DNA of 34,635 bases from positions 1 to 34,635 of the IMG/VR virus record IMGVR_UViG_3300017741_000024; one strand, given 5' to 3'. Both the position numbers and the translations under genes were made by a program. Positions 2,004 to 17,244 of this stretch are shown here, piece by piece. Each line of letters starts with the position of its first letter. Position 1 is the stretch's first letter. The notes beneath the pieces were generated by a model. The model was given only the letters and a program-made list of their open reading frames with translations. It was not told the origin of the DNA and ran no database searches. Source of the stretch: a virus.

Positions 2004-4390
2004 TGGCATCAATTAAAATAACACAGTTTAAAGGTGAGGCTCCGAGAGTATCATCAGAGTTACTAACAGATACAGCTGCTCAATTAGCTTATAATGTAAA
2101 GCTATATTCTGGAGATCTTATACCATATAGAGTTCCAAAAATTTCAGATAACATATCAAGAACAGGAACTATAGAAACTATATATCCTTTAAAAAATCCA
2201 GATACAGATGCTAATGTTTGGCTTAGTTGGACTACTGACGTTGATATAGTTACGCCAACAGATGCTTCTGATGAAGAGCAAAGATATTATTATACGGGTG
2301 ATGTTAAACCTAAAGTATCTACTTATGCTTTATCTACAACAGGTTCAGCTCCATATCCAGCTAATGGCGGATGCTATGATTTAGGATTAGATGCACCAGC
2401 TACGACAGTTACAGCTACAGCAACATCTTTTTCTGTAGTGAGTTCTACGCACTATGAAAGAGATTCTGGTAACACAGCTACTTTTTATGGGTCTGGCAAT
2501 CACAACTTAAGTTCAGGAAATATAGTAACTGTAAGAGATTTTGGTACTTCAGACGAAGCAAAATCTTTTAACGCTACAAATGTACAAGTAACTGTGATTA
2601 ATGCTACAGATTTTCAATACTTTAGTTCGGGAGATACAGTATCAAAAACAGCTAACACTACTGGTAGAGCTGATATGGCTGGCAATACACAGATAAGAAC
2701 TTATATATACACACACATTACGCCTTGGGGCGAAGAATCTGTGCCGTCATCTGTGTCTAATGAAATATTTATTAAAGAGGGACAAACAGTTACTATATCT
2801 AACATACCAACAGCTAAACCAAGTGGAGATAACTTTGTACGAGGTATAAATTTATATCGTAGTGTTACATCAGCAGAAGCTTCAGATTTCTTTCTACTTG
2901 ATACTTTATGGTTTCCAACAACCACAGCTAACCTATCACGTGTCGGGTCTACTAATATAGCTACAATTACATTAGCTCTCCCTCATAATATGGTAGTAGG
3001 AAATAGGTTTAAACTATCAGGAACTACAACTGATAGCGGAAACTTTAATGTAACTGGTGGGATAGTACTTAGTGTTGTTGATAGATTAACATTTACTTAT
3101 AGTAATACAGGTGGAGATATATCATCTACAGCAGATGCTAATGGAACTTTGTTTCACGATGTTGCTGAACTAGTTGATGATACAGCTAGATATTGGGGAG
3201 ATGGAAATGCTTTTAATTTTACAGATGATTTTTTAATATCAAATCTAGTTACAATACTAGAATCTACAGACTATGATAAACCAAAATCTACTATGAAAGG
3301 TTTAATACCGATTAATAGTAATATGTTGGCGGGTTTCTTTGATAACCAAGTATGTTTCTCATTCCCTGATAAACCACATGCTTGGCCTATAAAGCACAGA
3401 ATAACTGTTGATGATACTATAGTAGGGTTACAATCTACAGGAGCTTTTACTTTAGTACTTACAGAAAAATATCCTTATGTTATAACAGGAAATAATCCTG
3501 AAACATTAGAGCTTAAAAAAATAAATGTTGAGTATCCGTGTATTGCTAAAAAATCTATAGTAAATATGGGTTATGGAATTGCTTGGGCTACTAATGGTGG
3601 TTTAGCTCTATATGATAATTCTGGTCTTACTTCTTTAATTACAAAGGGTATTCATGACTGGGATACATGGTCTGAAACCATAGATCCAACTACTATTATA
3701 GGTCAGTATTATAATGATAAATATTTTGGGTCACATTCTTTAGGTCTTTTTATTTTTGAAAGAGAAAAAGAAGGGGGTTACTTTACAACTAGTCAGTATA
3801 ATTTTAATGCATCTTACTTAGATAGTTTGTCTGATATTCTATATTATATTGATAACACTGTTGGAGATATAAAAGAGTGGGATAGAGAAGGGCAGATTTT
3901 TGCTCCTTTAGAATGGAAATCTAAAACTATAGTTACAAAAAACTATATGAATATGGGTGCTGCTAGAGTTATAGCAGATTATACAGATATAACTAACGAG
4001 AATGTAAACGAAACAGCATATAATAATACTGTTCCTACGTTTAATGCAGCAGTGTGGGCAGCAAGTCAACAATTAGGTTGTTTAAATGGACCTACAGATT
4101 ACACAGATAGTAGTAGCAACAGGGTAGAGAATATAGGAACTCTTAACGCTTTCCCTGTAAACGGAGATAGTCAGACACAAACCCTAAAAGTTTTATCAGG
4201 AGTATTACCTGTTACGTTTAAGTTATTTATAGACAAGGAAATAGTGTTCCAAGGAACTGTACAATCAAGTGATATATTTAGATTACCTTCTGGATATAGG
4301 TCTGATACATTTGAAGTCGCAGTATCAGGATCAGCTAGAATTAGAGCAATACATTTAGGTGAAACACCTAAGGGATTAAGTACAGCATAA
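2003..4390 (+). CDS. Tail nozzle-like structural protein (T7 gp12 position and length)
   Basis: This is a 795-residue protein, close to the length of T7 gp12, the nozzle or tail tubular protein B. Its N-terminus (ITQFKGEAPRVSSELL, then AAQLAYNVKLYSGDLIPYR) has the same style as nozzle proteins, which open with a segment about the number of strings and 'contributed' residues before a beta-propeller. The stretch YIYTHITPWGEESVPS and the RYYYTGD region recur in structural proteins of marine phages. The composition is Thr/Ser/Asn-rich and beta-rich, with no signal peptide. Residues 159-221 and 319-381 look like two copies of one beta domain (see findings). It starts on a TAATG overlap and ends on another. 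The gp12 equivalence is inferred from order and length, since direct similarity cannot be tested here; a generic tail or stabilisation protein is the alternative. Confidence 0.65.
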   Translation: MASIKITQFKGEAPRVSSELLTDTAAQLAYNVKLYSGDLIPYRVPKISDNISRTGTIETIYPLKNPDTDANVWLSWTTDVDIVTPTDASDEEQRYYYTGDVKPKVSTYALSTTGSAPYPANGGCYDLGLDAPATTVTATATSFSVVSSTHYERDSGNTATFYGSGNHNLSSGNIVTVRDFGTSDEAKSFNATNVQVTVINATDFQYFSSGDTVSKTANTTGRADMAGNTQIRTYIYTHITPWGEESVPSSVSNEIFIKEGQTVTISNIPTAKPSGDNFVRGINLYRSVTSAEASDFFLLDTLWFPTTTANLSRVGSTNIATITLALPHNMVVGNRFKLSGTTTDSGNFNVTGGIVLSVVDRLTFTYSNTGGDISSTADANGTLFHDVAELVDDTARYWGDGNAFNFTDDFLISNLVTILESTDYDKPKSTMKGLIPINSNMLAGFFDNQVCFSFPDKPHAWPIKHRITVDDTIVGLQSTGAFTLVLTEKYPYVITGNNPETLELKKINVEYPCIAKKSIVNMGYGIAWATNGGLALYDNSGLTSLITKGIHDWDTWSETIDPTTIIGQYYNDKYFGSHSLGLFIFEREKEGGYFTTSQYNFNASYLDSLSDILYYIDNTVGDIKEWDREGQIFAPLEWKSKTIVTKNYMNMGAARVIADYTDITNENVNETAYNNTVPTFNAAVWAASQQLGCLNGPTDYTDSSSNRVENIGTLNAFPVNGDSQTQTLKVLSGVLPVTFKLFIDKEIVFQGTVQSSDIFRLPSGYRSDTFEVAVSGSARIRAIHLGETPKGLSTA

Positions 4391-5532: not shown

Positions 5533-6002
5533 TGTTAACTGAAATAAAAAAAGAAGAGCTTAAGTATGAGCCCCAATTACTATCATCGAAAGAGTTATTA
5601 GATAAATACTGGGGTCAATGCACACCACTATTTCAAAAATGTATTGATAAGCAAATGGATGGAGAGCTAGGTGTAGAAGATATTTACTCCAAAACTTTAA
5701 AAGGCCAGATGTTTGTTATTGCAGTTAAGAATGATAGCACTGAAATACCTGACGTAAAGTTAGCTTTAGCATTAGAACTAGTATATTATCCAAAGTATAC
5801 AGCTATGAATGTAGTGGCTTTAGGCGGTAAAGATTTAAAAAATATGATAGACATGTTTTGGAAACATGTTTGCGGTTGGGCAAAAATTTGTGGGATAAAA
5901 AAGATGGAGTGTTCTGTACATCCAGCAATGCAAAAAGTTTTAGAAGGCGTTGGGTTTGAACAAAAGTATATCCAACTAAGACAAGATTTAACGGAGAATT
6001 AG
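5532..6002 (+). CDS. GNAT-fold protein, T7 gp13-like
   Basis: This 156-residue protein starts with GTG on a TAGTG overlap. The core looks like a GNAT acyltransferase: strand at about 59-66 (QMFVIAVK), strand 77-87 (LALALELVYYP), strand plus turn 91-101 (AMNVVALGGKD), a helix, then IKKMECSVHPAMQKVLEG and a final strand (GFEQKYIQL). T7 gp13, encoded just before the internal core proteins, has the same fold, and short GNAT-like proteins precede the ejection genes in many podoviruses. The usual Q/RxxGxG/A acetyl-CoA loop is not clear; GGKDLKN may occupy that place, so the protein could be structural rather than enzymatic. Order and size favour the gp13 role. Confidence 0.65.
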   Translation: MLTEIKKEELKYEPQLLSSKELLDKYWGQCTPLFQKCIDKQMDGELGVEDIYSKTLKGQMFVIAVKNDSTEIPDVKLALALELVYYPKYTAMNVVALGGKDLKNMIDMFWKHVCGWAKICGIKKMECSVHPAMQKVLEGVGFEQKYIQLRQDLTEN

Positions 6003-7259
6003 ATGTCTACAGAATTAAACCCCTTAGCAATTTCAGTTAAGAATTACAACCAACATACTATACACCCATTACATCCAACAATGCACGGCGGCGGTGGAGG
6101 TCTAGGTTCTATTATTTCAGTAGTAGCAGCGGTAGCAATACCTGTTTTTGCTGGTCCAATTGCTGCGTCACTAGGTGTATCATCTGCTATAGCATCTGCA
6201 ACAGGACTTGCGGCTGGCGGTATAGCAGCAGGAGCTCTTGGCGGTGCTGTTGTTGGTGCTGGATTAGGTGCTATAACAGCAGTAGTTGCAGGACAACCAA
6301 TATCTAGAGGTGCATTATCGGGTGCAATAGGTGGTGCTATAGGCGGAGGACTAGATGCATATGCTTCTTCTCAACCTATTATCGGTGCGGATGGAGCACC
6401 ACAACTTGTAGATGGAACTACGACACAAGCGGGTGTAAACCTTACAGATCCTACAGCTGTAGCACAATCAGCTACTACACCATACGCAACTGTACCACAA
6501 TCACCACAAAGTATAGCTCTTGCAGCTCAAGATGCAGCTTTTATAGAGCCTACAGTTCTTGGTAAATTAAAAAATATAGGGTTAGCTTCTGTAGAGAGAA
6601 TAGCTGATGACCCTGAAGCAGTAGCAAACTTAACTTTAAAAGCCGCTGGTAGACTTGTTGGTGCAGCTTTTGTACCAGATTCAGCTACAGCTGGGCTGAC
6701 TCCAGAGGAAGAAAATACTGTTAATAACATAGAAAAAGAATTAGAAGTACTAAGAGCGAGAGATACACAAGCATTTAATGAGAAAATTAGAATAGCTGGT
6801 GACTTCTTAATACAAGCAAAAAGCCTTGACCCAGAGTATTTTGCTAATCAATTTGCTAATACAGCAAAAATAGCAGCAGCTAGGTCAGGTCTAAAAACTA
6901 GAGAACAAAAATCATTTAATGCTCCGTTCTTAGAAGAGAGCCTTGCAGACACAAATAGAATGAGCTTAACTCAGTTTGGTGCAGGTGCTAAAGCATATGA
7001 TGCTGGTCTTAGACAAGGTCAGTCATTACAGAATAACGCTTTAACCCAAGCATCTAATATATACGAGGGTATAGGCAGCTCTGGACAAACAACACCATAT
7101 CTACAAGGACAGCTTGGATTAGGTGAAATATATGCATCAGGTAGAGTAGCTGGTGATAAAGCAAGATCAAATATAGTATCGGATATAGCTGGTTTAAATA
7201 CTGGTCTAAAATTTGTAGATGAAGAAGATGAGAATAAGACTAAAGGAGCGATAGGATAA
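6003..7259 (+). CDS. Gly/Ala-rich internal virion (ejection) protein, T7 gp14-like
   Basis: The 418-residue product has a short polar leader with a GGGGG run at about 29-33. A long Gly/Ala/Val/Ile-rich hydrophobic tract follows (about 34-125) with repeated GGAIGG/AAGG steps that could form membrane helices. The rest (about 180-410) is mainly helical and polar, with NNIEKELEVLRARDTQAFNE. In T7, gp14 is the first ejection protein and inserts into the outer membrane to make the DNA channel; the hydrophobic tract and gene position fit that role. The start is directly after the preceding TAG and its stop overlaps the next ATG (ATAATGG). Assignment is by position and composition, not by recognised sequence motif. 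Confidence 0.6.
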   Translation: MSTELNPLAISVKNYNQHTIHPLHPTMHGGGGGLGSIISVVAAVAIPVFAGPIAASLGVSSAIASATGLAAGGIAAGALGGAVVGAGLGAITAVVAGQPISRGALSGAIGGAIGGGLDAYASSQPIIGADGAPQLVDGTTTQAGVNLTDPTAVAQSATTPYATVPQSPQSIALAAQDAAFIEPTVLGKLKNIGLASVERIADDPEAVANLTLKAAGRLVGAAFVPDSATAGLTPEEENTVNNIEKELEVLRARDTQAFNEKIRIAGDFLIQAKSLDPEYFANQFANTAKIAAARSGLKTREQKSFNAPFLEESLADTNRMSLTQFGAGAKAYDAGLRQGQSLQNNALTQASNIYEGIGSSGQTTPYLQGQLGLGEIYASGRVAGDKARSNIVSDIAGLNTGLKFVDEEDENKTKGAIG

Positions 7260-8830
7260 TGGCAAGAGGTGTTTTAGGTGCAGCTTATAGTGTAGATAAA
7301 AATGCCTATAATAAAGGAGTTGCAGATGAATTAAACCTACAAGCTTTGCAAAGAGCTAACACTGCAAGACGAATGATAACGTCTAATAATAACTATGGAG
7401 TTACTCAACCTGATGCATATCAAAATCCTTTTGATAGTCCTATTCAAGAACAAGGTAGAGTTATGCCAGACCCAAGGGCTGGTGGTCAGTATATGACTGT
7501 TCCTGGAAGCGAACAAGACAAAATGCTAGCAGACCAGGACAAAATGAATTTTCCAGACTCACCACCTAAAGTGGTATTGCCAAGAGCTTCAGTTATAAGA
7601 CAAGCTACAAGGCAAAAACAAGATGTGGGTTTAGGTTCACCTAGACCTGAGACAGGAGGTATGATTTTTGGACTAGGCCCTAGATTTACGGGAGACCCTA
7701 AGATGGTAGATGAAGCTGTCTTATCTAGAGATATAGCAGGAAACATTGCATTCCAAACATTTCAACCTGGAGACTCTATACCTGGTCTATTTACAGGTAC
7801 AACTACATCACCAACAATAAAATCAGATGATGAGCCAGAAGCAAAAGGTATCTTATTCGGAGCTGGCCCTAAATTTAAAACTCAAACAGAAGAAACGACT
7901 GAAGAAGTTATAGTTAATAACACAGGTAAAAAAGTAACACTAGATAAGACAAAGCTTTCAGAGTTACTTGAGTCATCTAATGATTCCGAACCACGTGATG
8001 CCGAGATAAAAGATATAACGAGTATGGGTGTAATAATTAGAATGAGGGAGGATCAAGTTAATAAGCCTTCTAAAGGTTTGGGTCAAGTAGCACGTGACAT
8101 GATAGAAGATAGAAAATTTATTACTAATAAAATAATGAGAAACCAAAGACTTGCTGAGGTATATAGAAGAGTTGGAGATGCTACAAATTACCAAGCGGCT
8201 TTAACTGCATCAGATTCGCTACGACAAGAGTTAAGAGAATACGATAATGCAATAACCTTAGCTATAGGTAAAGATGCTTTAGCTGATTTAAATTATAGTA
8301 ATAATGCATCTCGTGTATCTCAAGTTTTATCTAGGATTTTAAACAGAAACATTGAGATTGTTCCTAATTCATATGACAACAAATTTACCATGCTTGTAGA
8401 TGGCCAAGTAAGAGAACAAGGATTATCAAAAGCACAGATGTCAGATAGGGTTAATAGCCTAACAGATTCTGGATACAGACAACAAAAAATTAAAACAAGA
8501 ATGGAACAAGCAAAAATGTTATTCCAGGGTAATATAGATAAAGATAAAGAGCTGACTGTTCTTTTAGGTAATATAAAACTTGAAACACTAAAAGGTAAAG
8601 TACAAGCAATGATAGAAAGAATTAAAGCTGACAATACATTAAATATAAAAGCCTTTAATGACGGGACAGCAATACTACAAACAGGGCCTGGCCAGTTTAT
8701 GTTCTTTAACCCATACTCACCTGATCCGTTAAATGAGGGAGGGACTATGCCTATGTTTAAAAGCTTATCAATGCCTTATACAAATACACAAGCAAATCCC
8801 TATAAACAAGGTTTTAAAAAACCAGAATAA
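7259..8830 (+). CDS. Internal virion (ejection) protein, T7 gp15-like position
   Basis: The 523-residue product starts with ATG overlapping the preceding stop by one base. The first 210 residues are Gly/Pro/Asp/Gln-rich and probably flexible. They contain two similar motifs, GGMIFGLGPRF at 133-143 and KGILFGAGPKF at 196-206. The remainder (about 240-500) is predicted helical and charged, with runs such as MIEDRKFITNKIMRNQRLAE and GKVQAMIERIKADNTL. No enzymatic motif is seen. It lies between the gp14-like and the giant gp16-position genes, so it is likely a middle ejection protein of the internal core, which in T7 (gp15) forms part of the periplasmic tunnel. Half of the T7 protein's length is missing, so equivalence is by position only. 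Confidence 0.55.
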   Translation: MARGVLGAAYSVDKNAYNKGVADELNLQALQRANTARRMITSNNNYGVTQPDAYQNPFDSPIQEQGRVMPDPRAGGQYMTVPGSEQDKMLADQDKMNFPDSPPKVVLPRASVIRQATRQKQDVGLGSPRPETGGMIFGLGPRFTGDPKMVDEAVLSRDIAGNIAFQTFQPGDSIPGLFTGTTTSPTIKSDDEPEAKGILFGAGPKFKTQTEETTEEVIVNNTGKKVTLDKTKLSELLESSNDSEPRDAEIKDITSMGVIIRMREDQVNKPSKGLGQVARDMIEDRKFITNKIMRNQRLAEVYRRVGDATNYQAALTASDSLRQELREYDNAITLAIGKDALADLNYSNNASRVSQVLSRILNRNIEIVPNSYDNKFTMLVDGQVREQGLSKAQMSDRVNSLTDSGYRQQKIKTRMEQAKMLFQGNIDKDKELTVLLGNIKLETLKGKVQAMIERIKADNTLNIKAFNDGTAILQTGPGQFMFFNPYSPDPLNEGGTMPMFKSLSMPYTNTQANPYKQGFKKPE

Positions 8831-8841
8831 CGGAGCTATAA

Positions 8842-11800
8842 GTGGTAGAAAAAGTAGGTCTACAGACAACAGGAGACTTTGGATTTACTTCTACTGATTC
8901 TAACACCCCACTAACAAATGATTTTGGCTTTAGCGAGCCTCTTGATAATACAGGTATGCAAGGTCTAACAGCTTTTGATGCTGCCTACTCGGACTCAATA
9001 GCTGAATTAGACGCTGTGGAAAAAGGGTTTGACGCTCCTGTAGGCCCTCAAGTATTATACAGTCCCTCTACGCAAAAAATGTTTGTCAACGGTTCAACGT
9101 TTAATGTTGACGATTACCAATCAGCTGTAGAATCAGAACGATTTTTAGATATGCCCCCTGCTAGGCCACCGAAAGATGTAGCAGATTGGCAAACTGTAAG
9201 CCCCGAATCATTTACTAAGTATATACAAAAAACAGTAAACCCTAACCGTGGTACTTTGATTGGTAGAAATCTTGAGATAGGTGGTAGTAATCTAAAGATG
9301 TTAGCTGGTAGAGCAGCACAGTTTTATGGTGCTGAAGAAACAGGACAAGAGCTTGTTAGTGAAGCATTAGAGGAACTACGTGATAACCAACCATTTCAAA
9401 GAGAGTTTACAGAAATAGAATTTGGCAGCGAAAGTGGTAATGGTGCGATAGATTGGTTTGTAGCAAACTTTGCACAGCAAGGACCCAATTTACTTGAAAC
9501 AGTAGTAGTAGCTGGTCTAGGATATGTATCTGGTGGTGGGGCTTTAAATCCATTGTCAGGTGTAGGTAATGCAGTCCTTTCTGTAATGGGTAAAGAAGGA
9601 TATAAAAAAGGATTGCGGATAGCTGCAGAAAAATATGCTAAGGGCGAAGCCTTAACTAGAGGTGAAAGAAAATTATTACGTGAGGCAACAGGTATAACAG
9701 CTGCTGTGGTAGCTAGAAATCCAAAAGGTTTATATGGTAATACAGCTGGTGAAATACTAAATAGAAAACAGTTTTTAAAATCGCAAGTTGGTAAACAAAA
9801 ATTAACAGCAAAAACTATTGGTGAAAAAGCAAGGCTAAGAGATAAACTTGCAGGTGCTACAGGTGCTGTTACGCTGTCTGCACAAACTATGGGTATAGGA
9901 GATATCTATGGTGAGACTATAGAACAAGGAGATCCAAGTAGATTAAAAGCTTTTGCTGGTTCTCTACCGTATGCAGCAGCTGAACTGCTACCAGAGTTTA
10001 TTTTAGCTAAAAAAATATTTGGTGTTAACCCCAAAAAAATAAAAAGCACTATTGATAAACAAGGCAATCCGCTACTTGCACCAGAAAAAAACGTATTGGT
10101 AGGAGCTACAGATACAGCAGGTAGAGTAGGGTCAGGGTTTCTTGTAGGTGGTACATTAGAAGGGGCTACAGAATTAGGTCAAGAAAGTATACTGCTTGGT
10201 TTAACAGGACAAATGAGTGATGCCGAAACAACTAAAAGGTTGATTAATTCTTTTGCAGCTGGGTTTGCAATAGGTGGTCCAATAGGTGGAGCCGCTAACA
10301 TTATAAAAAATAAAGAGCCTACAGATATTTTAGGTAGTAGTGACCCTCAACCAACTACTACTAAAGATAAAATACCAGAAGATCCAAGTAAGTCTAACCC
10401 ATTAAATTTTTCAGGTCGTGGTGGGCAGCCTATAACACCAGAACCTATAGCTCGTTCTAGAGATTTAAGGAGGCAGTCTATAGTATCGACTCCAGCTCCT
10501 CAAGTTGCAGCTGCTATACCAGCAGGACAACAATTCTTAATGGACCAAGGGCAACAAATAAATGATAAAAAAGCTGACGTTAAACAGCAAGATTTCTTCC
10601 AAGAGCAAGCATTAAAAAGACAAGAAACATTAAAAACAAAAAATGATACTAGAAAAAGAAATGCAAAAACACGTGAAGATAAACTTGCAGAAGATCTAAA
10701 TATAAAAAAAGCTACTACTGAAGATTTAGAAAAAAGACTTAGTAAAGAAAATAAACTACAAGACCAAGATAAAGAGAATATAGACTCTCTAGATGACACG
10801 TTAGATAACACTACAGGTTACTCTATAGGACAGACTATCGAGTACTATGAACCCGATGGCACAGTAAATACAGCTGAGATTAAAGCTATAAATAAAAATG
10901 GAAATATCTTTAAAGTTGTAAAAAAAGGTAAGAAGACCCAAGAGTTATTAGACGCAGACGATATAAATACAAATTCTAATGCTCCTGATTATCTTTTAAG
11001 AACTCCTGACCTTAACATACAAGGTACAAAAGCTAATGATTATAATTTAAACCAAACAAAACTTATTTTAAAAAACCTTAGAGAAAGATATAAAGAATTA
11101 CTTCCTAAAGGTGACAAACTTGTATTAAAAGATTTACAACGAGATATAACAGCCTTTAGAAATAGGCTTAGAATATTAGAGGAAGTAAATACAAGGAGAA
11201 TGAATTTACAAGAACAAAAAAAAGCTGAGCAGAATACCCCTAATATACTCGATGACACTTCTGTTCAGCCCAATGAAGATCCTACAAACCCATTAGCACT
11301 TAGACAGCAAAGAATAAAAGAATCTAAGATAGCAGCTAAAGATGTAAACGATGGTAGGTATAAATTAAAAGGCAATAGAATTGTAGGCATTATGAGTGTT
11401 GAAGAACTAGTTACACAAAGAAACAGACTAGTTGCTAAATCAAAAAAAGACAAACGAGATAATCGTGACTTAGAAGCTGTTAACAATGCTATTAGTGCTG
11501 CAGAAAAAAGAGCAAGAGATGCTGCTGTCCCAGGAGCTGCTGTTGCAGGAGCAGTTGTAGCAACAGACACAAGTAAAACTACTGCTCAAGCTTTAGAAGA
11601 TAAATTACAACAGGAGAATGTCAATGCCAATCAAGAGCAAAGCCCAGCTGAAGTGGCTGCAAGAGAACCGACCACAGATAGCGGAGGAGTTGCTGAGAGA
11701 AACCAGCAAGAACCAGAGGCTCAAGCTACCGCAGAAAGTCAAGAAGACCAAGGACAAGTTGAAGATGGAGGAACGACTACGAGCTCGAACCAGGCGATCG

Positions 11801-14800
11801 AAATTGACAACCAAGCTAGCAAAGAACAAATTCTTGAACCAGCCAATAGGTCGGAGCAAAATAACGTAGTAGCCTACAACAAAATTAAAAACGATTCTTT
11901 TGGTTATGGACCAACGTTTGAAGAGCTACCATCAGAATTACAACAGGATGTTTTAGGTTTTAGTGAAGTTAACCCACAAAATGTTGAAGATACTTTTGCT
12001 TTATACAATGAGTATATTGAAAATAATAATCTATACGCAGACCAATTTACTAATTATGTAAATGTATTTGAAGAAGCTGAAACTTCTTCAGAAAAGATAC
12101 CAGCTATACAGAATTTAATTAGATTAGCATATGGAGCCCAAGGTACTGAAACAAGTGGAGCAGTCTATAAACGTGCTATTGATTATTTAGATAATGCTTT
12201 AGACCAGACTAATATAAAAGATGTAACTGATATAGATAGAACAAATATAAGAAATGTATTTACAGAATTTATAAATTTAAATGTTAAAAAATCCGCATCA
12301 ACTTCTAGAACAACTGACGGTGTAAGTATGAATGTGCCAAACCCTTGGTATAAATTTGCTATAAGTAATAACTTAATGGAAGTAGACCCCATGACAGGGA
12401 TTTTAGATCAGAAAGATATAACGTTAGAGATTACAAGATTGCCTACTAATGTAAGAATTAAACAACCTGAAGTATCTGGCGACATAATAAAAAACAAAGC
12501 AAGTAAAAAAGAAGACGTAGCTCCAGAATCTTTAAGCTATAACCAAGCATTAGAAGAACTTGATACATTTATTGATGATTCTATACAAAGACTTCAGTTA
12601 ATAAACAGCAAAACTAATAGTAAAAAAACACAGAGGGTAGAAAAACTTTGGGCTGCAGTTAGGGAAACAAATCCTGATGTAGTAACTAGAGTTAATGAAG
12701 GTGGGAAACCTAGAGGTATACCAATTAAAAACTATTTTACTAATGGCAAATTAAATTTAAAACAAGACGGTAAGGGTAGCTTTGTAGTCACAACCGAAAC
12801 AGATGCTCAAAGACGAGAGAAACAAAGACTTATACAAGAAGCTAGAAATAAAAAAGAAGAGGGGCGTTATAAAAATTATGACAGTATCAATGGTGACTTC
12901 TTTGATAATGATGGCAAACCAATAACGAGTACAGTTCCGCAAGGTAAAATAAAACTTATGGTAAGCTCATTTATTAGCAGACTAAAAGTAAAACCTAATG
13001 TAACTGTAGTAAAAAATGCAGAAGATTTAAGAATTAAAAATCCTAAGCTATACAATAGGGCTGTAGCTGGTAGACCAAACGGTGACTTCGGTCAATTAAA
13101 TGCAGTAGGTTACTCTATTGGTGATCAAGTAATTATATTCTCAGACTTTGCTAAAACTGAACAGCAAGTTAGGTTTGCTCTGGCTCATGAAACTTTAGGC
13201 CACTTTGGTTTTAGGGCATTCATGCCAGAGAAACAGCTAAATAAAATTCTTAAAGAGATATATGATACGGATGGTTATGTAAGAGCGGCAGCTGACAGAA
13301 GAATAGAAAGAGGTGAAAGTAAATTTGAAGCAGTAGAAGAAGTTATAGCTGACAGTGCAGCAAGTCTTGACGCAAATATAATACTTAAACTTTGGAACGC
13401 TGTTAAGAATTTTTTAAATAAACTAGGTATGACGTTTGAAGATGACTTAGCTAGGTACTTAGTAAACCAGTCTCGTAGGAATTTGTTTAGAGGCGGGTAT
13501 GGTGTTGTAAGTATGGAAACATTAACATCAAACATGCGTCGTCTAGCTAGCGAAAGTACATATGGTAGATACCATATAGAAACTAATAGGGCTGATTTAG
13601 GTAGTAGGCTCGTTGGGTTTCTTTCTTCTACTAAAAATCAAGGAGCAAACAACGTTGCAAATACTTATGACTACTTAGTAAGAACTAAAAATAATATTAC
13701 GGGTGGACCACTTGCAGATAGATTAGGTAAAGCTCTACAAGAAGTACAAACTTTTGATAACTTATCAGATAAAAATGAAGGTGCTCAGTTAATATTTAAC
13801 TTGTTTCAAAGAGCAACCGCTACAACTAGAGAGCTACAACAAAAATATGAAAAGCTAACTGAGTTTACTTTGTCATCAGGTCTTGATAGACCACCAAGTA
13901 AATATGATTCTAATGCAACTCAAGAAGAAGTAGAACAGGCTGGCGAGTTATTAGCTTATGCTAACGCATATATAGCACAACAAACATCGGAACTTGATAT
14001 ACAAAATGCTCCTTCTTTAATATTGTTAGAAAATAATATGTTTAGAATTAACCCCGAAGCAGTAGCAGAACTAAAACAAAGAGGAATACTTTCTAAAGAA
14101 CAATTTCAAGAAGGTTTTGACATAACTTTACCTGTTACAGAAGGTACAGATACTACTGAAAACTATAGAATGGAAGAGATATCAGATAGAGTCTATGACA
14201 TTTACTTAGAACAAAGAGAAGCAATCAATACAGCAGCCATAGATCTTTTATCTGCTAATTTACAGAACATAGAAAATGAAAAAGATAGTATAGCACATAC
14301 ATTTGCAGAGCTAGTCGGCAACGAAGGCTTTAATACAGAGACTGAAAACAAAACATTAAAGAATATTATTAATAAATATATAGAATTATATCAAGAAGAC
14401 TTTACACAAGAAGGGTCTGCTATAACTTACAACGATACATCTAGGAAAAGAGCTGAAGAATTTTTAAGAGAAGTCAACCGTGCCATGCATACAGAAGAAA
14501 AATTAAACGACTGGATAGCAGGTGAGGCTGGGATAGAATTTAAAAATGAGTTTGCAGGTGATGAATTTGCAGACATTATTGAAGGTTTAAAAAAACTTAA
14601 TGTAATATTTAAAGGTAAAGATAAGTTAGCATATAAAATTACTGAGTCAATTAAAGGACTATATATACTAGACAACAAAAATGTTGGAGCAGAGTATCGT
14701 GCTAAACAAACTTTAATGGATGGTTATGTGCCGTTCAAAAGAAGTGGTAGCCATGAAGTTTTAGTTACGGCAGTAGACCAAAAGGGCAATCCTATATCGC

Positions 14801-17244
14801 TACCCGCTATATACAAAGACTCGTTACCGTACTATCAAGTTGAAGGAAGGCTTGATGCTGAAAACATGGTAGAAGAAGTTAACAAAGTATTTGGAGATAC
14901 TGAGTTTGTGATACCTGATAACGATGGTCAGGATATAACTGATGGTCAGGATATAACTGTTAGGTTTAAAGCTAGTTACGGAGATGTAAGATCTAATTCA
15001 CCTGCTGCTGTTGACGGTAATTTATCAGAGTTTTTAGGGAACTTACAAAGATTTAATGTACCTTTAGGTGTAGAAAAAAGAGAAGAAATTATAAAAGCTT
15101 TTACAGCACAAAACGATAGGATGAGAAAAAGTTTAAAGAAAAGTTTTCAACCTGGGTTTGACACTACAAAAATTATACAGAATATAGCAGAGCATTTAGA
15201 AACACAATCACACGCAGCAGCTAAAGCATACTATAGATTTAAGCTAACTAAAATTATGCAGGATTCAGATTTATTTAAAGGTAATATAAATAAATTAAAA
15301 AAACTAGAAAAAAGAATGCTAGACCAAGAGGCAAGAGCAAAAGCTGGTAACATAAACGAAGAGACATTATTAGAATCACAAAGAGAGTATGATGCTTATG
15401 CTCATATGTTTTACTACAGTGCACCAGCTGGTTTAAATTCTGTTAATCTATATTCAGGCAGGGGTACAAACCGTACAAAACAAACATCTAAAACTTTAGG
15501 TAGGTACAATGTATATCAAGCAAAAGCTCAAGAACTAGTAGCTTTCTATGATGGTGCTAAAAATATAGATGTTTCTACAGAAGACTTATTATCAGGTGCA
15601 CCAGGTTCATTGCTAAAAACAGCAACAGTTGCGTTTCAATTAGGTGGATCTGTTGCTACAGGTTTAATTAACTTAGTATCTTTAATTACTCACACCATAC
15701 CATACTTAAGTACATACAATTCTAGGAATGGATACGGAGGTGGATTTGGAATGATGCAGTCTTCAGGTTATGTATTCGATGCTATCAAAGATATGTCAGA
15801 CCTAGGCGGTTCTATATCAAGAGAAAGAAGTACAGGGTTAGCTAAATATGCTTTTGTTGAAAAAGTTAAGAACGATAAAAAGTTACAGGCTAAATATAAT
15901 TTAAAACAAGACGAAGCAGATGTTTTATTTGATGCAACTAGACAAGGTGTACTTCAAGCTGCACAATTTAATGCTCTTGTAGGTACAGCTAGAGGAGGTG
16001 TCTCTAGATATAGAGTCGGCACTTCGTTAATGAGAACATGGATGAGTGTGTTTTCTTATACAGAACAACTTAACAGACGAGCTACATTCTTAGCTGCATA
16101 TAGAATGCAAAAGAATAGATTGATGGCAGGTAGAACAGATAAGGTTTCAAATGAAATTAAAAATGAAGCCGAAGCATTTGCTATAAAAGCTGTAAATAAA
16201 TCTCAAGGTGAGTATGGAATGTTTAACAGACCTGAAATGGCTCGGGGTAATATACTTCAATACATCTTTATGTACAAACAGTTTGTTATTATTACTGTTC
16301 AACTAATGAGAAACTTAGGTCGAAAAGAACAAGCAGCTATGATGCTTCTTTTACTTTTTGCTGGTGGGTTAAAAGGATTACCATTTGGTGAAGATCTTTT
16401 AGATTTATATGATACCTTAGCTCAAATGTTTGGTTTTAAAGTAGGACCTGCAGATAAAGACATAGCAAAAGCAGCAGAGAAAGTGTTTCCAGGGTTTGGT
16501 CAGTATGCTTTAAGAGGTTTTCTAGACAGTGCAACAGGTGCAACCATATCCACACGGTTAGGGTTTGGAGATATTATCCCTGCAACAGGTGCGTTTAAAG
16601 CTGGGGCAGATCCATGGCGTGAAGCTTCAAACTTTTTAGGTCCTGTATGGTCTGCTGCTACACAAGCTACAGGTTTTGCTACAGATAGTGTTAAACTTGC
16701 AGCACAATCATTAGGATTAAAAGATGATTCAGGTATGACAATGGGAAGTCTACTTAGGTCTGCACCGCTTGGTGGTGTAAGAGGTATAACTGAAGCTGTT
16801 ATATATGGTATGGATGGAACAATTACAAACAGGTCAGGAAAACTTATAAAGAATGATGTATCAGGTTTAGAAATATTCTTTAGAGCATTAAACTTTCACC
16901 CAGCTGAGGCTACAAGACAAAATGAAATTATTCGTATGAATAAACAGACAGCTGATTATGCTAAAACATTTAAACAAAATTATATTAATAGATATGTAAA
17001 AGCAAAAACAAATAAAGATTTTAAAGAGGTAGCTAAAATCATGAGAGGAGTAAATGAATTTAATAATGATTATAGAGGTACTCCATTTGAGATAAGAAAC
17101 TTTGCACCATCTGCTGAACGTGCTTATAAGTCATCTACGCTACCCGTTGCAGCAAGGTACAAGAAGTTTGCTCCTAAAAATATAAGACCTGAGGTACAAG
17201 AGATGCTAGATATGTATGGATATACTGCAGCTGATCTTAAATAA
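8842..17244 (+). CDS. Giant 2800-residue ejection/polyvalent protein with zinc-protease motif
   Basis: It starts with GTG, preceded by CGGAG at 8831-8835 with 6 bases between. It sits last in the gp13-14-15-16-like set. Visible parts: disordered N-terminus (1-140); hydrophobic Gly-rich segments at about 204-250 and 471-487; a charged helical middle (about 560-900); an acidic Gln/Glu-rich linker (about 905-1010) with a nested +1 gene; HETLGH at 1449-1454 followed by EEVIAD at 1499-1504, a pattern of HExxGH zinc proteases common in large polyvalent proteins; long helical regions; hydrophobic stretch 2267-2290; and, at about 2400-2520, a segment (LNRRATFLAAYR, EYGMFNRPEMARG, YKQF) like the LPD38 polyvalent domain. 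T7 gp16 is half this length and begins with a transglycosylase; no such motif was noticed here. Probably an injected virion protein acting in the periplasm or host cytoplasm. Confidence 0.8.
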   Translation: MVEKVGLQTTGDFGFTSTDSNTPLTNDFGFSEPLDNTGMQGLTAFDAAYSDSIAELDAVEKGFDAPVGPQVLYSPSTQKMFVNGSTFNVDDYQSAVESERFLDMPPARPPKDVADWQTVSPESFTKYIQKTVNPNRGTLIGRNLEIGGSNLKMLAGRAAQFYGAEETGQELVSEALEELRDNQPFQREFTEIEFGSESGNGAIDWFVANFAQQGPNLLETVVVAGLGYVSGGGALNPLSGVGNAVLSVMGKEGYKKGLRIAAEKYAKGEALTRGERKLLREATGITAAVVARNPKGLYGNTAGEILNRKQFLKSQVGKQKLTAKTIGEKARLRDKLAGATGAVTLSAQTMGIGDIYGETIEQGDPSRLKAFAGSLPYAAAELLPEFILAKKIFGVNPKKIKSTIDKQGNPLLAPEKNVLVGATDTAGRVGSGFLVGGTLEGATELGQESILLGLTGQMSDAETTKRLINSFAAGFAIGGPIGGAANIIKNKEPTDILGSSDPQPTTTKDKIPEDPSKSNPLNFSGRGGQPITPEPIARSRDLRRQSIVSTPAPQVAAAIPAGQQFLMDQGQQINDKKADVKQQDFFQEQALKRQETLKTKNDTRKRNAKTREDKLAEDLNIKKATTEDLEKRLSKENKLQDQDKENIDSLDDTLDNTTGYSIGQTIEYYEPDGTVNTAEIKAINKNGNIFKVVKKGKKTQELLDADDINTNSNAPDYLLRTPDLNIQGTKANDYNLNQTKLILKNLRERYKELLPKGDKLVLKDLQRDITAFRNRLRILEEVNTRRMNLQEQKKAEQNTPNILDDTSVQPNEDPTNPLALRQQRIKESKIAAKDVNDGRYKLKGNRIVGIMSVEELVTQRNRLVAKSKKDKRDNRDLEAVNNAISAAEKRARDAAVPGAAVAGAVVATDTSKTTAQALEDKLQQENVNANQEQSPAEVAAREPTTDSGGVAERNQQEPEAQATAESQEDQGQVEDGGTTTSSNQAIEIDNQASKEQILEPANRSEQNNVVAYNKIKNDSFGYGPTFEELPSELQQDVLGFSEVNPQNVEDTFALYNEYIENNNLYADQFTNYVNVFEEAETSSEKIPAIQNLIRLAYGAQGTETSGAVYKRAIDYLDNALDQTNIKDVTDIDRTNIRNVFTEFINLNVKKSASTSRTTDGVSMNVPNPWYKFAISNNLMEVDPMTGILDQKDITLEITRLPTNVRIKQPEVSGDIIKNKASKKEDVAPESLSYNQALEELDTFIDDSIQRLQLINSKTNSKKTQRVEKLWAAVRETNPDVVTRVNEGGKPRGIPIKNYFTNGKLNLKQDGKGSFVVTTETDAQRREKQRLIQEARNKKEEGRYKNYDSINGDFFDNDGKPITSTVPQGKIKLMVSSFISRLKVKPNVTVVKNAEDLRIKNPKLYNRAVAGRPNGDFGQLNAVGYSIGDQVIIFSDFAKTEQQVRFALAHETLGHFGFRAFMPEKQLNKILKEIYDTDGYVRAAADRRIERGESKFEAVEEVIADSAASLDANIILKLWNAVKNFLNKLGMTFEDDLARYLVNQSRRNLFRGGYGVVSMETLTSNMRRLASESTYGRYHIETNRADLGSRLVGFLSSTKNQGANNVANTYDYLVRTKNNITGGPLADRLGKALQEVQTFDNLSDKNEGAQLIFNLFQRATATTRELQQKYEKLTEFTLSSGLDRPPSKYDSNATQEEVEQAGELLAYANAYIAQQTSELDIQNAPSLILLENNMFRINPEAVAELKQRGILSKEQFQEGFDITLPVTEGTDTTENYRMEEISDRVYDIYLEQREAINTAAIDLLSANLQNIENEKDSIAHTFAELVGNEGFNTETENKTLKNIINKYIELYQEDFTQEGSAITYNDTSRKRAEEFLREVNRAMHTEEKLNDWIAGEAGIEFKNEFAGDEFADIIEGLKKLNVIFKGKDKLAYKITESIKGLYILDNKNVGAEYRAKQTLMDGYVPFKRSGSHEVLVTAVDQKGNPISLPAIYKDSLPYYQVEGRLDAENMVEEVNKVFGDTEFVIPDNDGQDITDGQDITVRFKASYGDVRSNSPAAVDGNLSEFLGNLQRFNVPLGVEKREEIIKAFTAQNDRMRKSLKKSFQPGFDTTKIIQNIAEHLETQSHAAAKAYYRFKLTKIMQDSDLFKGNINKLKKLEKRMLDQEARAKAGNINEETLLESQREYDAYAHMFYYSAPAGLNSVNLYSGRGTNRTKQTSKTLGRYNVYQAKAQELVAFYDGAKNIDVSTEDLLSGAPGSLLKTATVAFQLGGSVATGLINLVSLITHTIPYLSTYNSRNGYGGGFGMMQSSGYVFDAIKDMSDLGGSISRERSTGLAKYAFVEKVKNDKKLQAKYNLKQDEADVLFDATRQGVLQAAQFNALVGTARGGVSRYRVGTSLMRTWMSVFSYTEQLNRRATFLAAYRMQKNRLMAGRTDKVSNEIKNEAEAFAIKAVNKSQGEYGMFNRPEMARGNILQYIFMYKQFVIITVQLMRNLGRKEQAAMMLLLLFAGGLKGLPFGEDLLDLYDTLAQMFGFKVGPADKDIAKAAEKVFPGFGQYALRGFLDSATGATISTRLGFGDIIPATGAFKAGADPWREASNFLGPVWSAATQATGFATDSVKLAAQSLGLKDDSGMTMGSLLRSAPLGGVRGITEAVIYGMDGTITNRSGKLIKNDVSGLEIFFRALNFHPAEATRQNEIIRMNKQTADYAKTFKQNYINRYVKAKTNKDFKEVAKIMRGVNEFNNDYRGTPFEIRNFAPSAERAYKSSTLPVAARYKKFAPKNIRPEVQEMLDMYGYTAADLK
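11624..11869 (+). CDS. Nested +1-frame small basic gene (MPIKSKAQ family-like, 81 residues)
   Basis: This gene lies wholly inside the 2800-residue ORF, one frame over. ATG at 11624 follows AGGAG (11612-11616) with 7 bases between; another in-frame ATG is at 11618. An in-frame TAG at about 11595 shows it is not a longer frame. The product begins MPIKSKAQLKWLQENRPQ, then IAEELLRET and LPQKVKK, and ends in a Lys/Arg-rich tail. Small phage proteins that open with KSKAQxxW(L/M)xxNxPxIA and then LPE(K/R)V are common as free-standing genes, by my recollection. In the overlap the host frame uses no ATA, GTA or TTA/CTA among its 7 Ile, Val and Leu codons, and GTA reappears exactly at the nested stop. 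Likely a genuine overprinted gene; expression is unproven. Function unknown, possibly nucleic-acid binding. Confidence 0.6.
   Translation: MPIKSKAQLKWLQENRPQIAEELLRETSKNQRLKLPQKVKKTKDKLKMEERLRARTRRSKLTTKLAKNKFLNQPIGRSKIT
14923..14958 (+). repeat. 18-base perfect tandem duplication inside the giant gene
   Basis: GATGGTCAGGATATAACT occurs twice without a gap (14923-14940 and 14941-14958). It keeps the frame and doubles the residues DGQDIT at about 2028-2039 of the giant protein. It is probably a recent slippage or duplication event in a surface loop. Confidence 0.9.

Follow-up and report, generated by a model that had tools for sequence, protein, structure and literature searches.

Does the giant virion-type gene of this virus contain a second gene, and if so, which of the two reading frames came first? 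The locus lies in the window, the whole stretch of 34,635 nucleotides analysed here (positions 1 to 34,635 of IMG/VR record IMGVR_UViG_3300017741_000024). Judged by sequence comparison, the small open reading frame at 11624-11869 is very probably a genuine, separately initiated gene of an old small family, nested in the +1 frame of the giant protein's linker. The linker frame would be the younger of the two, and the slot would serve as a cassette site.

The giant gene (8842-17244, plus strand) starts with GTG and encodes 2800 amino acids. In alignment A2 it comprises a conserved N-terminal part (8842-10353, about residues 1-504), a hypervariable middle that holds the slot (10354-12879), and a conserved C-terminal half (12880-17244, about residues 1347-2800), all on the plus strand. 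The protein is conserved on both sides of the slot, and between distant relatives the sequence next to the nested gene can for the most part not be aligned. The homologous C-terminal region places the host gene with the PLxRFG/DarB-like giants (phrog_11358, E 3.3e-49; F116-type phages, E down to about 2e-20). These giants, among them those of F116, Parlo, and ZX1 and P1 DarB, are of the internal virion or antirestriction type, and the host protein resembles them over no more than its last 19%, at about 24% identity. A table in PMC10695390 gives P1 a separate gene, ulx, with the role of enhancing DarB incorporation. Upstream of the giant gene, the window gene at 2003-4390 matches the "internal virion protein" phrog_511.

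The layout described by the sequence-only reading is found as claimed at 11612-11869. It consists of a Shine-Dalgarno sequence AGGAG (11612-11616, plus strand), 7 bases, ATG at 11624, 81 codons, and TAG (11867-11869), and the product begins MPIKSKAQLKWLQENRPQIAEELLRETSKNQRLKLPQKVKK. With its own start and stop, wholly inside another gene and in the +1 frame relative to it, this is a nested embedded same-strand gene. A second in-frame ATG lies at 11618, one base past the Shine-Dalgarno sequence; the likely start is 11624, since the relatives begin at the residue encoded there. The nested frame is the sole plus-strand ORF of at least 60 amino acids inside the giant gene, and its stop-to-stop lengths across that gene run 90, 45, 36 and fewer codons. 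A GC-rich island (11520-11879, plus strand) coincides with the slot, with 44-53% in 120-base windows versus about 24-38% around it. When the giant protein was fixed and its codons were redrawn from the gene's own usage, the nested frame was open in 0.1% of 1000 trials; the row used was L027, whose nested product is identical to that of the window. The claimed avoidance of NTA among isoleucine, valine, and leucine codons is real (1 of 8 in the overlap versus 344 of 543 over the whole giant gene), but the effect is small and mostly restates the absence of nested stops.

An IMG/VR scan with the nested product found contigs at 100, 80, 48, and 45% identity. All of these matches are nested +1 in a giant ORF (one of 2264 codons, the rest of about 2700-3300), and most have a GGAGG-type site ahead of the product. 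A search that made no use of the nested gene, run with the giant C-terminal region, yielded about 100 loci. The nested-protein profile matched nearly all loci in which the giant middle is covered, and each match lies in the +1 frame within the giant ORF; the loci scanned gave no homologue in a different frame or beyond the giant. Once identical sequences are discarded, 51 distinct nested copies remain (47 of the SKAQ family to which the window product belongs and 4 of a second, phrog_2423-like family), and these share descent and are not 51 independent trials. The GC content of the giant host genes ranges from 34 to 63% across loci. A start codon, ATG or GTG, occupies the conserved position in all 51 copies, and the preceding stop in the nested frame is often just 1-5 codons upstream. 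At least 6 bases matching TAAGGAGGT precede 35 of the 51 nested starts, versus 24 of 7607 background starts (the remaining ATG or GTG codons of that frame in those genes); relatives carry AGGAGGTACACAAG-ATG and similar arrangements. No distinct related copy found has a closed nested frame. The expectation that such an arrangement is unlikely by chance is borne out by dozens of contigs as well as by the redraws.

Substitutions in the overlap fall at giant codon positions 1, 2, and 3 in the proportion 438:322:233 (21 disjoint pairs), versus 2397:1673:4443 in the giant C-terminus of the same pairs (chi-square 294). The single pair L016/L017 gives 27:6:5 in the overlap. Giant position 1 is nested position 3, which indicates that the overlap evolves as coding sequence of the nested frame. 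The constraint anticipated over the overlap is thus strong and lies on the nested frame, with changes piling up at its third positions. Nested amino acid identity equals or exceeds giant-frame identity in all 21 pairs. With the nested protein fixed and codons drawn at random, the median number of trials that leave the giant frame open is 0 of 1000. Both frames are maintained by selection, although on the linker residues themselves selection is weak. The phrog_2423-like copies behave differently, as their +1 frame is open in 79-81% of synonymous shuffles (L094-L096); the case for these copies as genes rests on homology, the Shine-Dalgarno sequence, and the allelic series described below. In GC-rich giants, a +1 frame that stays open is no rarity on its own, with a fraction of up to 0.81 for these copies.

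The nested family has the N-terminal motif MPxKSxAQxxWLxxNxPxxA...LPxxV. Its resemblance to stand-alone small phage proteins, proposed from the letters alone, holds: free-standing relatives lie just after TerL (L021), between TerL and portal (L023), and beside a lysozyme gene (L022), and others occur in MAG contigs (L141, L148, L150, L154, and L157). The free-standing copies start at the same residue as the nested ones and are found in contigs assigned to many phyla. The profile search suggested earlier fails for the window product itself and succeeds for its nested relatives. The window product (P0001) has no match to phrog_1375 at E <= 10, no usable match alone in Pfam or PHROGs, and nothing significant by tblastn in INPHARED phages. 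The phrog_1375 profile is of outside origin; searched against 29 whole records, it picks up the nested gene in 14 of them at E <= 0.01 (best 3.8e-7). The free-standing L022 matches this profile at 6.6e-7. The window protein is likely to be related to phrog_1375 by way of these nested proteins, a kinship that stops short of a claim of formal membership. A nested gene born de novo is one that has no homologues outside the overlap, and this gene has them. Because the small protein has free-standing relatives and the giant frame at the slot is a dispensable disordered linker, the small frame is probably the older. From this distribution, the small-protein frame is most likely ancestral and the linker frame newer.

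The occupant of the slot varies. Five loci (L094-L097 and L109) hold an unrelated small protein, MPLKKGSSNKVVSANV..., a relative of phrog_2423; hhalign gives a probability of 1.1% for the comparison of the SKAQ and phrog_2423-like families. The second family is also free-standing, directly after the portal gene in phage DSL-LC04. Near-identical flanks connect an allelic series of phrog_2423-like (L094, L095, and L096), SKAQ (L102), and empty (L099) slots. The SKAQ protein of L102 has a GTG start, and the C-terminal segment of its giant is 92% identical to that of L094; in L099 the same segment is 98% identical to L094. In L099, GGAG has become GAAG, the start codon is lost, and the giant frame runs on. 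The slot is covered without any occupant in L099, L110, L120, L124, and L116, and such empty slots indicate that the small gene is dispensable in some phages. Some +1 and +2 ORFs in L110 and L112 came from a loose Shine-Dalgarno filter and look like noise. A tree of the giant C-terminus requires at least 8 changes of slot state. SKAQ lies on both sides of the deepest fork, the phrog_2423-like state needs 2-3 changes, and the empty state 5.

The SKAQ protein is also nested +1 in giants that have no detectable similarity to that of the window. These are L139 (1759 aa), L143 (3388 aa), and L145, L147, and L149, all contigs from GTDB assemblies, and the copies nested in them have no clear Shine-Dalgarno sequence. 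In a profile comparison of A2 with L143 only the nested segment aligns, and its probability of only 3.5% makes this an illustration. In L142 (2935-8171), the SKAQ gene is un-nested and follows the open frame of a 1687-aa gene by 5 bases. The 1687-aa gene is related to the L139 giant, and the tandem L142 and the nested L139 look like two states of the same gene pair.

A third family, of about 129 aa and with the motif M[YFH]QVPxxxWNxI..., is nested +1 in DarB-like/PLxRFG giants of the cultured phages Serratia phage Parlo, Klebsiella ZX1, Pseudomonas phage Skulduggery, 45A6, D274, and 1.232.O. The copies lie in the low-complexity linker of these giants, in L133 (Parlo, 6623-7006) and in L134, L135, L136, L137, and L138. 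With two near-identical Vibrio phages set aside, the identities are 27-64%. In every pair outside that Vibrio pair the giant-frame identity is the lower, and in the closer pairs substitutions are shifted to giant position 1. The family has no PHROG match, and the phage records list no separate feature for it. No SKAQ or phrog_2423-like copy was found in the giants of F116, Y7, Mel-JY34, and Parlo. A 98-aa +1 ORF with a Shine-Dalgarno sequence lies inside the DarB-like giant of Pseudoalteromonas phage vB_PalP_Y7 (L131, 3848-4141); it has a protein-like composition and no homologues in the phage collection.

The explanation that best fits these comparisons is that an old small phage gene occupies a hypervariable linker, disordered in character, within the giant protein. 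The linker reading through it would be a younger, loosely constrained frame. The slot would work as a cassette site, in which the occupant may be replaced by a phrog_2423-like gene or lost while the giant frame stays open. The small gene would be translated from its own Shine-Dalgarno sequence on the late virion mRNA, so that the two proteins would be produced at the same time. Three or more unrelated small families and several giant families that show no detectable homology to one another, including those of cultured phages, bear on a broader reading, which appears reasonably probable: linkers of giant virion genes may be general docking slots, where small late genes that already exist are taken up intact in the +1 frame, acquire a Shine-Dalgarno sequence, and can later be swapped or deleted, with the giant frame kept open.

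The alternative that survives best concerns the origin of the arrangement and is compatible with the cassette-site explanation. Here an N-terminal giant gene, the small gene, and a C-terminal giant gene were neighbours, and the loss of the first stop produced a read-through fusion. The tandem pair of L142 agrees with this, as do the two consecutive large genes of F116 and the giant of L050, which is split in the middle region into genes of 862 aa and 1888 aa (188-2776 and 5894-11560) with several unrelated genes between them. L050, however, sits among intact giants in the tree, so the split looks derived and was rejected as proof of a fusion origin, and the genes between its halves contain neither small family. 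Swap and loss are accounted for equally well by insertion into a linker that was already there, and a fusion origin is possible but on the unlikely side.

In classical overprinting, the small protein was born de novo in the giant gene and later escaped to a free-standing state. In favour of this, the occurrence of SKAQ on both sides of the deepest fork makes it old in the giant gene. The same family is nonetheless nested in giants without detectable homology and free-standing in many phyla, and an unrelated family can occupy the same place. In L099, moreover, the giant frame over the slot is missing and the flanks are unharmed. This course of events is improbable. The overprinting proposed from the sequence alone stands as to the nested gene itself and fails as to direction, which is probably the reverse, with the linker frame as the newcomer.

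Less probable still is a programmed +1 frameshift in the giant gene, which would yield a truncated giant with the small protein as its tail and the Shine-Dalgarno sequence as stimulator. SD-like sites can stimulate frameshifting, as in prfB, and a strong one is conserved here in coding sequence just before the frame change. Against it, all 51 copies keep a start codon, and the nested-frame stop ahead of it often lies only 1-5 codons upstream. The giant frame has no stop codon at the site, L099 lost the Shine-Dalgarno sequence and the start together, and free-standing members begin at the same residue. That an acidic low-complexity linker leaves the +1 frame open by chance, with a coincidental motif, is hardly credible and is refuted by the comparative data. 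The stretch is indeed low-complexity and GC-richer, and open +1 frames are common under shuffling in some GC-rich relatives, but conservation extends to about 45% identity and beyond, the Shine-Dalgarno sequence is conserved, the codon-position pattern is reversed, free-standing homologues exist, and P = 0.001 for the window itself.

The nested product of the window has a net charge of +18 and is predicted to be helical, and all nested products are basic (+7 to +23). Its AlphaFold model has a mean pLDDT of 83.5 and four helices, with a confident helical N-terminal portion of 60 residues followed by a basic helical tail. Foldseek found no match in the PDB; among viral structures, the best matches are uncharacterised phage proteins of 44 aa that stand alone. 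Each of the two slot families also has members that form separate genes next to terminase or portal genes. Tentatively, the product could be a small basic helical late accessory of virion assembly or DNA delivery, one that helps the giant internal protein to assemble or be loaded, or that binds packaged or ejected DNA. It may be a cis-produced partner of the giant protein.

Embedding in the +1 frame is already known in phage genes. Rz1 is the textbook embedded gene, lying +1 in a variable part of a larger protein, and separated versions exist (PMC6139136; PMC5295617). The Rz/Rz1 spanins of lambda and T7 resemble the slot gene in that a larger gene encloses the whole of a small one, read in the +1 frame. 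They differ in that they act in lysis, Rz1 is a lipoprotein partner of its hosting protein, and the nesting is at the end of a small gene. In the cited passages no exchange with unrelated genes was found, whereas the slot described here has a giant virion gene as host and a changing occupant. According to a review (PMC8227390), the +1 frame accounts for the majority of internal overlaps born de novo, and disorder eases the conflict between frames. Gene E in D of phiX174 is likewise an internal overlap (PMC8227390). In that overprinting model the nested gene is new, whereas at this locus the nested family also has kin in other settings and it is the linker frame that can be spared. The small families phrog_1375 and phrog_2423, of unassigned function, resemble the two slot occupants, with free-standing kin near TerL or portal; they are known solely as ordinary genes, and nesting is not marked in PHROGs. 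No report of this nested gene, or of an exchangeable slot in giant virion genes, was found in the part of the literature covered, and such a slot is apparently undescribed.

Genes that lie wholly within another on the same strand are rejected by standard gene callers, and annotation of a widespread group of uncultured phages can easily overlook a conserved gene like this one. The filled, refilled, and empty alleles of one slot form a natural experiment in which the constraint imposed by the nested gene can be told apart from that of its host. The arrangement also suggests that nested genes can come about through the capture of genes already in existence, and not through de novo birth alone. 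Docking slots, if true, would be the reverse of de novo overprinting, in that the long gene adapts to the small one. The cultured phages with a similar DarB-like arrangement (Parlo, ZX1, and Skulduggery) allow bench testing.

Other small frames occur elsewhere in the window. Lys-rich ORFs at 78-461 and 465-653 lie in other frames of an acidic, repetitive 324-aa ORF (2-976), and are possibly only a by-product of its Glu-rich codons. Just before the phrog_511 gene, two mutually overlapping genes, 1634-1795 (phrog_27331) and 1761-2003 (phrog_23735), encode small basic proteins. In L127 and L128, similar small basic genes are grouped with a phrog_2423 relative.
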